Source: Terripilifer ovatus
GTDB taxonomy: Bacteria > Pseudomonadota > Alphaproteobacteria > Rhizobiales > Beijerinckiaceae
Assembly: GCA_029222685.1 (NCBI GenBank)
Contig: JARHVB010000027.1
Span: 62,001 to 126,000, forward strand
Direction of reading: 5' to 3'
DNA: 64,000 nucleotides
The notes below the pieces were generated by a model. The model was not told the DNA's origin and made no database searches. It saw only the letters and a program-made list of their open reading frames with translations. The translations under genes and the position numbers were made by a program. Below are positions 5,376 through 33,437 of the stretch, piece after piece. Every line of letters starts with the position of its first letter. Position 1 is the stretch's first letter.

Positions 5376-5756
5376 GTGTCCTCGGCAAAAATTCAAAGGT
5401 GGGTATCGATATCCCGTGAACGCGGCAGATGGGACTTGGAATTCAGCTATCTCTCGGACGTTATGCGGGACGTGACCCTCAACAAAGATGCTGCGCGTCG
5501 CCTTTTCGGCGCAGAGGATGCTGACGCTTTCCACAGCTTGGTGGCCGACATGAGAGACGCAATGTTCGTCGGGGAGTTGCCAGATGAGCCAATACAAACT
5601 GGGCAGAAAGATCAGTTGTTGTTGCGGCTGCGGCTTGGTCCTGGGACATATCTCGAAATTGAGCCACTAGGCAGCGAAGCTAAAGCTGGAAATTGGCGCG
5701 ACGCATATCGCGTCAAGTTCCTGCATATACACCGCGAAGGAGAAGTTTTGGCATGA
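5376..5756 (+). CDS. Putative HigB/RelE-superfamily toxin
   Basis: A 126-residue protein if begun at GTG 5376; a TTG at 5436 would give a start (MEFSYLSDV) closer to family members. The order of features matches RelE/ParE-superfamily proteins often annotated as killer suppression protein or HigB: a helical N-terminus (AARRLFGAEDADAFHSL), then strands LLLRLRLGPGTYLEIEP and DAYRVKFLHIHREGE, equivalent to the usual L-x-L-xx-GYRL-x-FEPA and AVRILEI-x-DYH. Its TGA overlaps the ATG of the next gene (ATGA), and that gene encodes an HTH-ImmA/IrrE protein, the standard antitoxin partner. Such toxins cleave ribosome-bound mRNA; activity here is inferred from family and context. Confidence 0.6.
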   Translation: MSSAKIQRWVSISRERGRWDLEFSYLSDVMRDVTLNKDAARRLFGAEDADAFHSLVADMRDAMFVGELPDEPIQTGQKDQLLLRLRLGPGTYLEIEPLGSEAKAGNWRDAYRVKFLHIHREGEVLA

Positions 5757-6859
5757 GCTTCGAGCCAGACTGGGCTTCATCTCCGGGAGCTACGATATCG
5801 CGATTGATGACGCTTCGCGATATAGCATCTGATGAGCTGGCATTTGGATTGGGAATGGAAGCCCAAGATCTTAATGCGTTGATCGGAGGAAATATCCGCA
5901 TAACACGTGAAGTCGCTGAGGCTCTTGCTAATTGTCTAGGATCTTCTCCAAGATTTTGGATGGCTCGCGATAGGACTTATCTTCTTGAGGCCGAGCGTCT
6001 TCGTCGCAGTTCGGTGAAAGATATTGAAGCCTGGAGCAAGGCCCTGCCGCTGAAGTCCATGCGAGAATTTGGTTGGTTGTCCGACGTTAAGGGCGAACAC
6101 CGATACAACGAATTGTTATCTTTCTTCGGTTGTAAGACACTATCAGAATGGGGCCAACGCTACTCTGCAGGAGTGGGCGCTGTAGCATTTCGTACATCGT
6201 TTGCATTCGAAGCTGACGCTATGGCCACGCTGGTTTGGCTACGTATCGCCGAAAGACAAGTCGAGAAACAAAAACTAAATCGATACGATGAACAAGCATT
6301 TGAAGCGCTGCTTCCGCATCTCAAGAGAATTTCGGTCTTCAAGCAACCCAAGACTTTCGTTCCCCGGCTCCAGGCTGCATGTCATAGTGTAGGAGTTGCA
6401 TTGACAACCGCGAGAGCTCCTAGAGGCTGTCGAGCAAGCGGTGCTTCGTGGGTATCAAAAACAGGAAATCCGGTAATTCACCTCAGCTTCAGGCATAGAT
6501 CGGATGACCATTTCTGGTTTACGTTTTTTCACGAAGCTGGCCATGTATTGTTACATCGCGAAAATCATATCGATGTTGATGGGTCGGATCCTGCACTCTT
6601 TGGATCGACAACAAACAGGGAAGCTGAGGCTGACGCTTTTGCTCAAGAGGCACTTGTGCCGTCAGACATTCGCAAAGATATTTTGAATGGGCGTGTCGCT
6701 CCTTCCAAGGTCATTGCTGCGGCCAAAGCGTCGGGTGTCACCGCTGGAATAATTGTTGGTCAATTGGAAAAAACAGGGGCGCTCCCTCACGGCAAAATGG
6801 GTTTTCTTAAACGTCGTTATCGCTGGGAAGATGATCCTTATTTGCCAGTATTGGGTTAA
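5753..6859 (+). CDS. HTH / ImmA-IrrE metallopeptidase domain protein (HigA-like antitoxin)
   Basis: A 368-residue protein starting at the ATG of an ATGA overlap with the upstream toxin-like gene. Residues about 20-75 form an XRE-type HTH of the HigA kind (MTLRDIASDELAFGLGM, then an AEALANCLGSSPRFWMAR stretch). The C-terminal half is an ImmA/IrrE (DUF955) domain: HEAGH at residues 260-264 is the HExxH zinc site, with NREAEADAFAQEALVP downstream supplying the third ligand region. In this class of toxin-antitoxin module the protein binds its own promoter and neutralises the toxin; the peptidase domain may allow stress-triggered cleavage. G+C is lower than in the core genes, consistent with transfer. 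Confidence 0.85.
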   Translation: MSFEPDWASSPGATISRLMTLRDIASDELAFGLGMEAQDLNALIGGNIRITREVAEALANCLGSSPRFWMARDRTYLLEAERLRRSSVKDIEAWSKALPLKSMREFGWLSDVKGEHRYNELLSFFGCKTLSEWGQRYSAGVGAVAFRTSFAFEADAMATLVWLRIAERQVEKQKLNRYDEQAFEALLPHLKRISVFKQPKTFVPRLQAACHSVGVALTTARAPRGCRASGASWVSKTGNPVIHLSFRHRSDDHFWFTFFHEAGHVLLHRENHIDVDGSDPALFGSTTNREAEADAFAQEALVPSDIRKDILNGRVAPSKVIAAAKASGVTAGIIVGQLEKTGALPHGKMGFLKRRYRWEDDPYLPVLG

Positions 6860-7734
6860 CCTCGAAAGTATTCATATTTTTCCGGGCGCTTTTGCCAATT
6901 GCATAAGCTGTCTTCTAAAACCTGCTTTCCCGTGTGAAGGTAGTCGTCTAGCATATCGACGCTAGCTTCGAGAGCTTTTGCCGCTATCCTAAACGACCTA
7001 TCGCCATGAAAAAGAAGCCTTGCTCCAGCAAGTGGTCCTGTTGCTCCGACTAAGTAAACCGAACCTGGCTCAATAGGCGCGAGGTCGAGCTTTCCCAACA
7101 TCGTTAGAAAATCAAACTTGCCGAGACGTCCAAAGCCCGCAACCGCATCAAGAGATTTGTAAAGTGCATCAAATGTACTCGTCGCTTCTTGGCCGTGTTG
7201 CTCATGAACCGCGCGTATAAGTCTCGCGAATGAACCCTGCGCAAATTGCCAGCTATGAAACGAGGCAAATGTTGCAGCGATACTTTGCGGCTTTTTGCTT
7301 TGATACTGACGATGATTTGAGTAACGGCCCGACAGATTTTTGTCGTTTAGCTGTACGCTATTTGCATTAAGCATTGCCTCAAATTGGTGCGGTGCGTGGC
7401 CGTATCTAGCTGCGGTCCAGATAGGTCCATGACCAAATGAGCCCATTACATTGGAAGCGAGCTTCCAGCCGTCATCTATATGCTTTCCAAATTGCGTTCC
7501 AATAAACGTCATCCATACGGCCTCATCCAGAGCGCCTTGTCTTGCCCGTAAGGCAGCCCCCTTGATTGGGTCAAAAGCATTCTGATGAGGATCGCATCGA
7601 TCGGCAGAAATATCGCGTCTTGCAATTTGCTGTACATATTCGATCCGACGGAGGCTGGAAATAATTTGAGCAACAAAAGTTGCTCGCCATTGAGGATCAA
7701 CTAAACCAGGTAGAACAGCCTTGCTGTTGCTCAA
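6856..7734 (-). CDS. Protein resembling alpha-glutamyl/putrescinyl-thymine pyrophosphorylase
   Basis: A mainly helical 292-residue protein, last gene of a leftward three-gene set, 54 bases after the thymidylate-synthase homologue. Its most distinctive segments are FGRLGKFDFLTMLGKLDL (201-218), GATGPLAGARLLF (230-242) and QVLEDSLCNWQKRP (271-284), together with an N-terminal PIWTAARYGHAPHQF. They match my recollection of the alpha-glutamyl/putrescinyl thymine pyrophosphorylase group, described computationally in phage DNA-hypermodification clusters and related to helix-hairpin-helix DNA glycosylases. Adjacency to a thymidylate-synthase-type enzyme supports the assignment. Its 3' end overlaps the convergent antitoxin gene by 4 bases. 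The catalytic role in a bacterial setting is unknown. Confidence 0.5.
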   Translation of the reverse strand: MSNSKAVLPGLVDPQWRATFVAQIISSLRRIEYVQQIARRDISADRCDPHQNAFDPIKGAALRARQGALDEAVWMTFIGTQFGKHIDDGWKLASNVMGSFGHGPIWTAARYGHAPHQFEAMLNANSVQLNDKNLSGRYSNHRQYQSKKPQSIAATFASFHSWQFAQGSFARLIRAVHEQHGQEATSTFDALYKSLDAVAGFGRLGKFDFLTMLGKLDLAPIEPGSVYLVGATGPLAGARLLFHGDRSFRIAAKALEASVDMLDDYLHTGKQVLEDSLCNWQKRPEKYEYFRG

Positions 7735-7788
7735 ATGCTGCCAGCGCCAGTTCGATCTGTTGATTCTTTTCTCTATGAACGCCAGCCG

Positions 7789-8847
7789 TCATTGAATTTT
7801 TCCTGCGGTCAGAATTTTGAGGAGTCGCCTTGCGGGTCCCAGCTTTCTTTCGATGCGATCCAAGACAAATAATTTGTATGTTGGATCGATGATCTTCTCG
7901 ATCAATGCTGCAGCTTCTTCTTGCTCGATGCCGTGTCGTTTTATCGTTACGTAATAGATTCTAAGAAGCGTTAGGAAATCGGTCCAGTATGGATTGAGCT
8001 CTACAGTTGGCCCGTAAGTGCGGTTTCCCTTACGAATTTCGGCCTCTGCTTTTATGACTTCATTTAGTGACGGCCAAGGATTACCATCAGGCATCCGAGG
8101 CATCTGAATCGGATCGTGTAGGCCCTCATCTAAATAGGCCTGAGCAAGCGTTTTGAACTTTCGTTTGTCGGTATCGCTGTACAGATGCAGACTTGCGACT
8201 GAATGTTGATACGAGCCAATTTCACAATTTAGCTGTCGTGCCGCTATTTCCTGAAGCATTGTGAAAGAGAAAATATCGTGTGGCAGGCCCAAAAAGGCAT
8301 CATTGGAACGCATATGCGTATGTAAGTGGACCTTATCGTTTCTTATTGCAAAATGTAGGGTGCAAGTGCAAGGAATGTCGTTGCTGTCGATCTCTGCGTC
8401 TCGGTTTGCAAAGATTTGAATGATTCCGTTTCTCGAACCGTTGCGCTGACTTAACGTGTCGATAACGCGCTGCCACTGGGTTCGCGAGGATATTTCCGCA
8501 TTATCGATGCCCTTGCTGAATATTCGAGGTCCATACGCGCCGTTCGCGGTTTTGCCATCATCAGAAAATTGGCTATATCCCGGAATGTAGTACTCGATGA
8601 ATTCGATTGAATTGTTGGAAGAAATATACCAAATAAGTTCACCCAATGAGCTGTAAATGCGTGCGCGGCTCTGTGATCGGCTTATTCGTGCTCTTGGATT
8701 CGTTAATTCCAGGAGCACGCCAAATATCTCTCTGCTATCTCCCTTCCTTGAAGATCTTACATCGAAGTCATTTGTGTTGTTTGACAAAAGGCGCGCAAAG
8801 ACGGCTCGCATGAGGTCATCGATGTTGTCAGAGCTTTTATAAAACAT
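7789..8847 (-). CDS. Divergent thymidylate-synthase-family enzyme (predicted dCMP/CMP-directed)
   Basis: A 352-residue homologue of ThyA and dCMP hydroxymethylases. Recognisable elements in order: SSLGELIWYIS near residue 68; the catalytic loop IPCTCTLHF with nucleophile Cys160; MRSNDAFLGLPHDIF at 179-193; and the nucleotide-binding SYQHSVASLHLYSD at 212-225. The Asn that ThyA uses to read the uracil ring (E. coli N177, in LGLPFNI) is Asp191 here. In dCMP hydroxymethylases and in laboratory variants this Asn-to-Asp change selects cytosine nucleotides. It is therefore unlikely to be the housekeeping thyA and more likely makes a modified pyrimidine nucleotide. Low G+C and partners (AbiV-like, pyrophosphorylase-like) point to a mobile modification or defence cassette. 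Confidence 0.8.
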   Translation of the reverse strand: MFYKSSDNIDDLMRAVFARLLSNNTNDFDVRSSRKGDSREIFGVLLELTNPRARISRSQSRARIYSSLGELIWYISSNNSIEFIEYYIPGYSQFSDDGKTANGAYGPRIFSKGIDNAEISSRTQWQRVIDTLSQRNGSRNGIIQIFANRDAEIDSNDIPCTCTLHFAIRNDKVHLHTHMRSNDAFLGLPHDIFSFTMLQEIAARQLNCEIGSYQHSVASLHLYSDTDKRKFKTLAQAYLDEGLHDPIQMPRMPDGNPWPSLNEVIKAEAEIRKGNRTYGPTVELNPYWTDFLTLLRIYYVTIKRHGIEQEEAAALIEKIIDPTYKLFVLDRIERKLGPARRLLKILTAGKIQ

Positions 8848-8914
8848 CTTGTCAGCTCTTCTTTAGGTATGCCGGTGGTGAGCCGCGTGAAAGATGATTG
8901 TGGGCAAGCGATCT

Positions 8915-9820
8915 TCACACTGTCTTTTGCTGTGGGACGATGAGATCACGCCACTGCGCATTGAATAGACTTTTCAATTTTGGAAGTTGATCTTTAAATT
9001 CATTCTGTTCTGATTCTGGCAGCGTTGAAAAATAGACGTCTATAAATTCCTCGCCCGAGCGGACTCGCCGAAGGATATCATCGAAGAAATCAGACGCATT
9101 TTTATGCGTGTCCGGACGAACTCCAAACTTTCCTTCAAGGCGAGCAGCCAGAGGACTAAACGGCGCCATGAAGTCGCCCGCCTCTAGTAAGAGTAGAGCC
9201 CGCCTGGCTACGAACAGCCAGCGGTGAATCTCGTGTAGTCCAATCTCGGCTGGATCGGATGTTACGACTCCGTTGGAGACATCCACATACATGCCTCGCT
9301 GACGAGCCTGTTCAACCTCTCCCTTGCATGCTGATTCAAGAATTGTGCGAATGTAATGCAGCTCGAGTTGTGCAATTGCGGCTTGATCCCCGCTTAAATG
9401 CTGGATCGCTGGTCGCGAAGCCTTCGCGACTGCCTGCCGAAGCTCATCTGAAAGAGGCCGGTTAAATACCTCAGACAAGGTCTTAGTGCCCTCATGCCGA
9501 GCTCGCAGTTCCGCCTGAATTTGCTCTGGCAGCTGCACCGGCTTAATGCCGTATTTCTGTAATACAGCCAGTTGAAGCATGAAGCCGGCGATGATCTGGC
9601 GAAATTGGTGCCAACTTGGTGTCCGCTTCGTCTTAGCTAAATCCAACTCTTCGCGAAGGCCTTTGCCTGCTTCCTCGAACGCCAAGATAGCTAAAGCGAT
9701 TGATGATCCATGACTGCCTTGCTCAAGCAATAACGCAGAATCTGCAATCAGTCGTTTGCAGTTCGCAATGATGGCAAGGATAGCGGGTGTCGGCTCATGT
9801 ACAGGTATACTTTGATTCAT
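8915..9820 (-). CDS. abiV: AbiV-family abortive infection protein
   Basis: A 301-residue helical protein, first gene of the leftward cassette. The N-terminus carries the AbiV signature: a helix DSALLLEQGSHGSSIALAIL followed by AFEEAGKG (E49, E50, K53). A later QARQRGMYVDVSNG (about 173-186) corresponds to the family's RxxGLYVD-type segment. AbiV of Lactococcus protects against phage by blocking phage translation through a phage-encoded trigger. Here it is followed after 67 bases by the thymidylate-synthase homologue, a combination I do not know from described systems; the C-terminal about 80 residues look like an added domain. The family call is fairly secure, the function in this cassette is not. 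Confidence 0.7.
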   Translation of the reverse strand: MNQSIPVHEPTPAILAIIANCKRLIADSALLLEQGSHGSSIALAILAFEEAGKGLREELDLAKTKRTPSWHQFRQIIAGFMLQLAVLQKYGIKPVQLPEQIQAELRARHEGTKTLSEVFNRPLSDELRQAVAKASRPAIQHLSGDQAAIAQLELHYIRTILESACKGEVEQARQRGMYVDVSNGVVTSDPAEIGLHEIHRWLFVARRALLLLEAGDFMAPFSPLAARLEGKFGVRPDTHKNASDFFDDILRRVRSGEEFIDVYFSTLPESEQNEFKDQLPKLKSLFNAQWRDLIVPQQKTV

Positions 9821-10811
9821 CCGAATATCTCAGTAATTGAAGTTAAGTGCATTAACTACTTCGTCTTTGCCAAAAGCAAGTATCGTGGACCTTCTCTCAG
9901 GTGGAAAAAACTTGATTTGGCGCTGGAACCAGCGTTGGGACGAGGGCTTAGGTAACGTGCCGTCACCGGCTTCCCCTCTAATTTCCGTCCATGCCCACCA
10001 TCCGCAACCTCATCCTCATCCTCGGCGATCAACTCACCCCCACACTCACCAGCCTCGCCGCCAGCGATCCCTCCCGCGATCTCGTCCTCATGGCCGAACT
10101 CCAGGAAGAAGCCACCTACGTTCCCCATCACAAGAAGAAGATCGCCTTTCTCTTGGCGGCCATGCGGCATTTCGCGGGGGAGCTGCGGGCGGCGGGGTGG
10201 CGGGTGGCGCATGTGAGGCTCGATGAGCCGGACAACCGGGGTTCGTTTACGGAGCAGGTGGCGCGGGCCGTGGCGGTGCATCGGCCGGAGCGGATCGTCG
10301 TGACCGAGGCGGGCGAGTGGCGGGTGGCGCGGATGATGGCCGCGTGGGGTGCGCGCTTCGGTGTGCCGGTCGATATCCTGCCTGATGAGCGGTTCCTGTG
10401 TTCGCATGGCGCGTTCGCGGCCTGGGCGGAGCAGGCGGCGCCGTTGCGCATGGAGTATTTCTATCGCGAGATGCGGCGGCGCACCGGCCTGTTGATGGAG
10501 GGCGGGGAGCCTGTGGGCGGCCGGTGGAATTTCGATGCGGAGAACCGCAAGGCGGCGAAGCCAGATCTGTTCATGCCGCGGCCACCGCGCTTCGCGCCCG
10601 ATGCGGTGACGCAGGAGGTGCTGGCCCAGGTCGCCCGGCGCTTCGAGGGGCATTTCGGCGATCTCTTGCCGTTCTGGTTCGCGGTGACGCGGGCGGATGC
10701 GGAGGCCGCGTTTGAGGCCTTCGTGGCGGAGGCGCTGCCGCGCTTCGGCGATTTTCAGGATGCGATGCTGAGCGGCGAGCCGTTCCTCTATCACAGCGTC
10801 ATCTCGCTTTA

Positions 10812-10909
10812 GAGCTTCGGTTCTGATGGAATCAGAACCGAAGCTCTCATTTTTGTTTTGAAGCGTTTTCTTCACGCGAACCGGCGACCACTTCGCTCGA
10901 AAACGCTTC
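10812..10909. mobile_element. MITE-like two-hairpin element, copy 1 (inside phrB)
   Basis: A 98-bp insertion flanked by TA at 10810-10811 and 10910-10911. It folds as two hairpins: perfect 16-bp arms at 10812-10827 and 10831-10846, and 10-bp arms at 10861-10870 and 10899-10908. Non-coding. The TA duplication is typical of elements moved by IS630/mariner-type transposases. Similar two-palindrome repeats are dispersed in rhizobial genomes. Confidence 0.85.
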
Positions 10910-11388
10910 TATTTGAACTGCGGGCTGCTCGACCCGCTGCGCGTCTGCCGAGAGGTGGAGGCCGCCTGGCGCGTCGGCGCCGTGCCGCTCAACGCGGCGG
11001 AGGGGTTCATTCGCCAGATCATCGGCTGGCGCGAGTATGTGCGCGGCATCTACTGGCTGAAGATGCCCGGCTATGAGCACGCCAATGCGCTGGGCCACAC
11101 GCGGCCGCTGCCGTGGTTCTACTGGAGCGGCGAGACCGACATGGCCTGCGTGCGCGCGGCGGTGACGCAGACGAAGCAGGAGGCCTATGCCCATCACATC
11201 CAGCGGCTGATCATCACCGGCAATTTCGCCATGCTCGCCGGCGTCGATCCGCACGCGCTGCACATCTGGTATCTCAGCGTCTATGCCGATGCCTATGAAT
11301 GGGTGGAACTGCCCAACACGCTCGGCATGAGCCAGTTCGCCGATGGCGGCCTGCTGGGCTCAAAGCCCTATGCGGCGAGCGGCGGCTA

Positions 11389-11484
11389 GAGCTTCGGTTC
11401 TGATGGAATCAGAACCGAAACTCTCTTTTTGTTTTGACGCGTTTTCTTCACGCGAACCGGCGACCACTTCGCTCGAAAACGCTT
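11389..11484. mobile_element. MITE-like two-hairpin element, copy 2 (inside phrB)
   Basis: A 96-bp insertion flanked by TA at 11387-11388 and 11485-11486. Its sequence is nearly identical to the copy at 10812 in the same orientation, differing by a few substitutions and small length changes. It interrupts the photolyase just before the Fe-S cysteine segment. Confidence 0.85.
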
Positions 11485-11855
11485 TATATCAACCGCATGT
11501 CCGACTATTGCGGCGCGTGCCGCTACGACGTGAAGCTGCGCACGGGGCGCGACGCATGCCCGTTCAACGCGCTCTACTGGGATTTCATCGGGCGGCACCG
11601 CGCGCGCCTGGCGGACAACGAGCGCATGGCACCGGTGGTGCGGGCCTATGAAGAGATGGATGGGGAGGAGCGGGGGCGGATCGCGGAGACGGCGGCGGCG
11701 TTTCTGGCGGGGTTGTGAGGGGCGGAAATCCGCAACCGACCCACCGCGCGCCATGAACGCGACTGGAAGAAGGGCATCTATCTGTCCTTTGACGGGGCGC
11801 GCGGAGCGAGCTCGCCATAAAGTTTGATAGCGCCTCGCCGCACGTCCGGCATCTT

Positions 11856-33337: not shown

Positions 33338-33437
33338 GAGCATTTTCGGTTCTGATAGAATCAGAACCGAAGCTCTGGTTTTTGTTTTGATGCGTTTTCT
33401 TCACGCGAACCGGTTTCCACTTCGCTCGAAAACGCTC
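33338..33437. mobile_element. MITE-like two-hairpin element, copy 3
   Basis: A 100-bp copy of the element found twice in phrB, in the same orientation, starting GAGCATTTTCGG and ending GAAAACGCTC, which reveals its inverted termini. Flanked by CA on the left and TA on the right, so any duplication has decayed. It lies between convergent SRPBCC and antiporter genes and its last base forms part of the antiporter stop codon. Confidence 0.8.

Follow-up and report, generated by a model that had tools for sequence, protein, structure and literature searches.

A conserved four-gene module joining a predicted dCMP 5-hydroxymethylase and DNA-base transferase to a toxin-antitoxin-like gene pair

Genes of the locus

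We have examined a stretch of 64,000 nucleotides from the genome of Terripilifer ovatus (assembly GCA_029222685.1, contig JARHVB010000027.1, positions 62,001-126,000 of the forward strand), which we call the window. It contains a locus at which the genes for a thymidylate synthase (TS) homologue and for a protein of the aGPT-Pplase3 family (aGPT3) run toward a gene for an Xre-ImmA/IrrE protease, itself preceded by a small open reading frame (ORF). These four genes make up the core with which we are concerned; a fifth, encoding a protein of the AbiV/HEPN type, adjoins the TS gene (Table 1). A first-pass annotation of the window had described three leftward ORFs in a setting of low G+C content, assigned to the AbiV, TS and thymine-pyrophosphorylase families. 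All three are present, the assignments are borne out by matches to PF18728, PF00303 and PF18746 respectively, and the G+C content per kb is 46-51% over 5-10 kb compared with 55-70% elsewhere in the window. TS and aGPT3 were correctly placed in one unit, but the two convergent genes of the plus strand were missed.

The genes are closely packed. Four bases are shared between the likely protease start and the small ORF's stop, and another four between the stops of the protease and aGPT3 ORFs, which lie tail to tail. In PADLOC scans only the protease and AbiV gave matches among the proteins of the core and AbiV.

Table 1. Positions of the core genes and of other features in the window
Feature	Position	Strand	Remarks
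AbiV/HEPN protein, 301 amino acids	8915..9820	-	likely an optional effector adjoining the core
TS-superfamily enzyme, 352 amino acids	7789..8847	-	predicted dCMP 5-hydroxymethylase
aGPT-Pplase3 / amino acid:DNA transferase family protein, 292 amino acids from TTG	6856..7734	-	PF18746, PF18724
Xre/HigA-like + ImmA/IrrE (M78) protease gene	5693..6859	+	likely start ATG 5753
Small ORF, 126 amino acids from GTG	5376..5756	+	predicted HigB/RelE fold
Four-gene core	8847-6856 and 5376-6859	- and +	
ORF of 371 amino acids	42-1157	+	
NERD-domain protein, 1116 amino acids	1361-4711	+	
Photolyase-related gene (DPRP, PF04244)	9991-11718	+	apparently in pieces: 9991-10812, likely continuations at 10913 and 11434
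Palindromic repeat	10811-10847, 11388-11416, 33348-33376		first two at the breaks of the photolyase-related gene

Conservation and distribution of the core

Is this arrangement peculiar to the window? An alignment of aGPT3 was used to scan the species genomes of GTDB, giving 41 loci whose neighbors were then clustered. TS and aGPT3 share a strand, with TS upstream, and the opposite strand carries a protein of ~370 amino acids that converges on aGPT3, with the small ORF behind it. A total of 71 loci (41 from genomes, 5 from plasmids and 25 from viral contigs) was profiled with five protein profiles; the set includes near-duplicates, and the presence of a gene was counted only at loci with room in the contig on the side concerned. 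TS, the convergent protease and the small ORF were each found in 65 of the 66 loci with room, and all four core genes were present in the right orientation in 60 of the 61 loci with room on both sides. There are two exceptions: at L043 the aGPT3 match extends over only ~45 residues, and L042, where the protease and small ORF were missed, is a stump next to an IS21-type element. Only genome loci went into the profiles of the protease and the small ORF. In the 30 plasmid and viral-contig loci, which served for neither, TS was found 30 times, the protease 29 times and the small ORF 27 times; where one was missing, the end of the contig had cut it off. The conserved unit is evidently TS plus aGPT3 with, convergent to them, the Xre-ImmA/IrrE protease gene and the small ORF of predicted HigB fold; the latter two are as conserved as the former.

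Of seven further loci, taken from sampled genomes, TS and the protease are present in six (two of these sharing identical sequence with loci already counted) and the small ORF in five, the sixth being cut. At L093 aGPT3 is found without TS or protease, adjoining a beta-lactamase-like gene. Full-length sets of all four proteins were obtained for 62 loci including the window, 50 of them non-redundant. Over these 50, pairwise distances for the six protein pairs were correlated with r between 0.85 and 0.93, and none of 2000 permutations reached any of these values. The correlation fits inheritance of the core as a unit; any genes kept together would give it too.

AbiV behaves differently. The first-pass annotation had made it a fixed part of a unit with TS and aGPT3, yet a profile of the window protein and its 18 closest relatives matched in none of the 71 loci, against the 60 of 61 that hold the four-gene core, and we have rejected the trio as the unit on this ground. 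Because the profile was made from close relatives only (19 sequences, window included), a distant HEPN protein could escape it. Pfam, run on selected flanking proteins of the related loci, gave no HEPN_AbiV match. Among 385 genomes of the class, 5 gave a match to the AbiV profile, that of T. ovatus included, and no AbiV relatives were confirmed in viral contigs. The sole hint of the trio elsewhere comes from a protein database, among the best 120 aGPT and TS matches: two AbiV relatives (P0251 and P0252) lie on contigs of 7352 and 4753 bases respectively, equal in size to those of aGPT relatives (P0035, 7352; P0013, 4753) and, in one case, of a TS relative (P0179, 7352). This falls short of demonstrating the trio.

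The core is rare and mobile. Genomes with aGPT3, that of T. ovatus being counted each time, number 1 among 101 relatives, 1 among 385 from the class, 5 among 327 from the order and 4 among 398 from the phylum; 8 of 72,556 plasmid records also carry it. The core is complete on all seven of the eight plasmids that were inspected. The plasmid carriers (Alphaproteobacteria, Pantoea, Arthrobacter and Leptospira) span three phyla; some of the core-bearing plasmids are conjugative, and on that of Pantoea the core adjoins phage portal and tail-fiber genes. A phage origin of aGPT3 was considered and set aside, as none of 50,697 phage records matched, yet 25 loci come from IMG/VR, possibly as proviruses. 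Relatives of TS turned up in 1507 phage records, no single stretch of which covers 80% of the query.

Protein families and predicted activities

The TS homologue matches PF00303 with E = 8.8e-22, and its closest solved relative is the CMP 5-hydroxymethylase MilA (E = 2e-46). Roles in selecting cytosine and deoxyribose, and for the residue three before the Cys nucleophile (Cys-3), are assigned in published work on MilA and the deoxycytidine monophosphate (dCMP) hydroxymethylase of T4 (available text of PMC5175136 and PMC6400193). In 62 TS homologues the Cys nucleophile (C160 in the window), the cytosine-selecting Asp (D191) and the active-site Tyr (Y105) are invariant. The deoxyribose-type residues are Ser in all 62 (S181) and Arg in 59 (R139), with Lys in the other 3, and Cys-3 is acidic in 61, being Asp in 44 (D157 in the window), Glu in 17 and Asn in 1. 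The window protein thus carries the cytosine-type Asp, both deoxy-type residues and the acidic residue at Cys-3. It has the nucleophile, the cytosine-selecting Asp and an Asp or Glu at Cys-3 in common with MilA and the T4 enzyme, as these are described in the same available text. It differs from MilA in having Ser and Arg in place of Ala176 and Lys133, and from the T4 enzyme in that Ser94, two residues before the active-site Tyr, is replaced, mostly by Gly (57 of the 62, window included). The best prediction from these residues is a dCMP 5-hydroxymethylase that departs from the known signature at one position.

The name thymidylate synthase given in the first-pass annotation is correct for the family, though as regards chemistry the residues suggest dCMP more than thymine. 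The uracil-selecting Asn of ThyA is replaced by Asp in all 62 homologues, and the window protein scores 66.9 bits against an NCBIfam equivalog cut-off of 327 for ThyA. A role as a replacement for ThyA was rejected because a separate, full-score ThyA (416 bits) is encoded on another contig of the same genome.

The aGPT3 protein matches PF18746 (aGPT-Pplase3) with E = 5.3e-87 and 292.2 bits against a cut-off of 25, a clear link to the pyrophosphorylase family on which the earlier proposal hinged, and PF18724 ('Amino acid:DNA transferase') gives an overlapping match (E = 2.6e-76). The best solved match of its structure model, which excludes an out-of-frame N-terminal stretch described below, is the phage 5-phosphomethyl-dU glycinyltransferase PUGT (8z2n); helix-hairpin-helix (HhH) DNA glycosylases were also matched. 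The title of 8z2n identifies it as gp46 of phage PaMx11, which we take to function in thymidine hypermodification. In that phage pathway the hydroxymethyl group is supplied by a TS-type enzyme. The model predicts a DNA-base transferase. The suggestion in the first-pass annotation that pyrimidine-modifying enzymes of phage type form a chromosomal unit is upheld. The module differs from the phage pathway in its predicted action on cytosine, in lacking a kinase, in being carried by bacteria and plasmids, and in its toxin-antitoxin-like half. A search of the T. ovatus genome with PF18723 (5-hmdU DNA kinase) gave no match, but the control was likewise silent.

The window copy of aGPT3 is unusual at its start. 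In 37 of the 39 loci measured, window included, the aGPT3 start lies no more than 24 bases from the TS stop or overlaps it; the gaps of 67 and 54 bases given for the three leftward genes were confirmed by measurement, but the 54-base gap between TS and aGPT3 is not the usual layout. The two exceptions are the window and L035, where an extra gene intervenes. Relatives of aGPT3 have an N-terminal stretch of some 20-25 residues ahead of the open frame of the window. A recognizable aGPT3 start, MTAGVHREKNQQIELALAAFEQQQG, is encoded there (7735-7792, from an ATGA overlap at 7792), in a frame that differs from that of the rest. Since this start lies upstream in another frame, the TTG at 7734 is probably not native, and with ~25 N-terminal codons out of frame the window copy of the module may be impaired. 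The frame break may be a real lesion, an internal restart or a sequencing error.

An extra gene of ~270 amino acids lies between TS and aGPT3 at L035, L051, L052, L058, L059 and L099, its products having 44-51% identity to the Leptospira copy. Pfam and PDB profile searches gave no match for it, and so lent no support to a uracil-DNA glycosylase, which a likeness of motif had suggested.

The other half of the core resembles a toxin-antitoxin pair. The protease matches PF06114 (E = 6.9e-9) and, in PADLOC, PD-Lambda-2_B (component B, Xre-peptidase; E = 3.1e-27), with a match to the HigA model below the cut-off; HExxH is present in all 62 sequences. The structure model of the small ORF has a HigB fold, and the pairing of a HigB-fold protein with an Xre-protease is predicted. 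PD-lambda-2, which defends against lambda, has a HigB-like gene (A) followed by an Xre-peptidase gene (B) and a component C related to a P4 antitoxin; B is toxic alone and A rescues (available text of PMC9519451). The order of a HigB-like gene, predicted as such in the module, and an Xre-peptidase gene is common to that system, so far as that text describes it, and to the module, which differs in having TS and aGPT3 convergent to the pair. No convincing repeat common to the regions upstream of TS and of the small gene, such as would form an operator shared by both operons, was seen in 21 selected loci. The inverted repeat TCAACC-N9-GGTTGA occurs in five exact copies in 1.13 Mb of loci, each just upstream of TS (L015, L016, L017, L019 and L021), and in imperfect form upstream of TS in several others. 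As it overlaps the apparent ribosome-binding site, it could serve as an operator or, at the translation start, form an RNA hairpin.

AbiV of the window matches PF18728 (HEPN_AbiV; E = 4.7e-15, 56.5 bits against a cut-off of 27.1) and, by profile, the solved AbiV 9bj5 (E = 4.4e-5). H71, invariant in all 19 aligned sequences, is a candidate for the alternative conserved His of the insert between helices 2 and 3 that the available text of PMC3710099 describes. The protein belongs to the same Pfam family as the Lactococcus AbiV of the HEPN superfamily treated in that text, from which it differs in being divergent, longer and next to a base-modification module. As AbiV and TS have the same orientation and a 67-base gap, their co-transcription is possible.

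The gene beside TS varies. Of 38 genome loci with TS, Shedu SduA occupies this position in L015, L016, L017 and L020, type I restriction-modification in L040 and L031, and Mrr in L011 (L017 and L031 by clustering), so that restriction or Shedu genes are found in 7 of the 38, a count that has no background rate beside it. The remaining neighbors, of which part were scanned, are ordinary genes or nothing recognized. AbiV is likely to be an optional accessory effector beside the core. At L009 a dCTP-deaminase-like gene (7976-8596, plus strand; PF22769, E = 4.7e-28), encoding another deoxycytidine-nucleotide enzyme, lies just upstream of TS.

Elsewhere in the window, the 1116-residue protein has an N-terminal NERD domain above the cut-off and a STAND-type NTPase match below it, and is possibly another defense gene of the same island. 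The 371-residue ORF had no match in Pfam or PADLOC scans. The repeat at the breaks of the photolyase-related gene is GGTTCTGATTCCATCAGAACC.

Possible modes of action

To judge from its genes, the four-gene module probably works as a phage-defense unit. Our preferred, though tentative, reading is that it is a mobile anti-phage module of toxin-antitoxin type, in which a HigB-like/Xre-protease switch would control a predicted dCMP 5-hydroxymethylase and DNA-base transferase that together make a hypermodified cytosine, with AbiV as an optional add-on effector. The TS homologue would convert dCMP into 5-hydroxymethyl-dCMP, which host kinases and polymerase would bring into DNA. There aGPT3 might flip out the modified base and, like PUGT acting on 5-phosphomethyl-dU, attach to it an amine or amino acid, leaving an activating step unaccounted for. 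By analogy with PD-lambda-2, the Xre-peptidase would be the component that acts or is toxic, kept in check by the HigB-fold protein until infection frees it. The modified base could harm or mark fast-replicating phage DNA, and the neighboring effector, AbiV here and Shedu, Mrr or type I restriction-modification elsewhere, may contribute RNA or DNA cleavage. More doubtful is a full cellular immunity by cytosine hypermodification, in which a new modified cytosine in DNA, made under the Xre-protease/HigB-fold switch, is exploited as a mark by interchangeable effectors (AbiV, Shedu, Mrr, type I restriction-modification).

DNA need not be the substrate at all. MilA, the closest solved relative of the TS homologue, makes a free nucleotide for an antibiotic, and the module has no kinase acting on DNA; the enzyme pair might produce free hydroxymethyl-dCMP or an amino derivative that poisons the polymerase of the phage or serves as a signal to AbiV or the protease switch. 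Against this, aGPT3 resembles a DNA-base transferase and DNA glycosylases, and the TS homologue has deoxy-type residues, and we think it unlikely. We would give the same low standing to self-marking or addiction, whereby the pair keeps the DNA of its carrier modified and the Xre-protease/HigB-fold pair or a neighboring nuclease acts when the mark is missing, making the element hard to lose and exposing unmarked phage DNA to attack. The toxin-antitoxin-like half, carriage on plasmids and restriction-type neighbors at some loci would suit such a scheme, but many loci have no recognizable nuclease beside TS, and modification at the level of the precursor would be expected to enter host and phage DNA alike. 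Very improbable, finally, is a dedicated three-gene system of AbiV, TS and aGPT3 with AbiV as its effector. The common strand, short gap and shared low G+C content in the window speak for it, as do the two pairs of equal-sized contigs, whereas AbiV was matched at none of the 71 related loci, where the protease and small ORF are as constant as TS and other genes occupy its position.

The components of the module are of known kinds. DefensePredictor lists an aGPT-Pplase system as a predicted, unvalidated defense and names validated systems that contain TS and 5-hmdU kinase domains (available text of PMC13092281); its aGPT-Pplase system may be the four-gene module. We found no paper on the module in the open-licence PMC literature, nor the combination of its enzymes with a PD-lambda-2-like pair.

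A defense gene that adjoins a conserved module need not be part of it. Enzymes of base hypermodification are known mainly as the armor of phages. If our preferred reading, that of a module building a hypermodified cytosine, is true, then a bacterial module turns this chemistry against phages, or makes it the basis for addiction.

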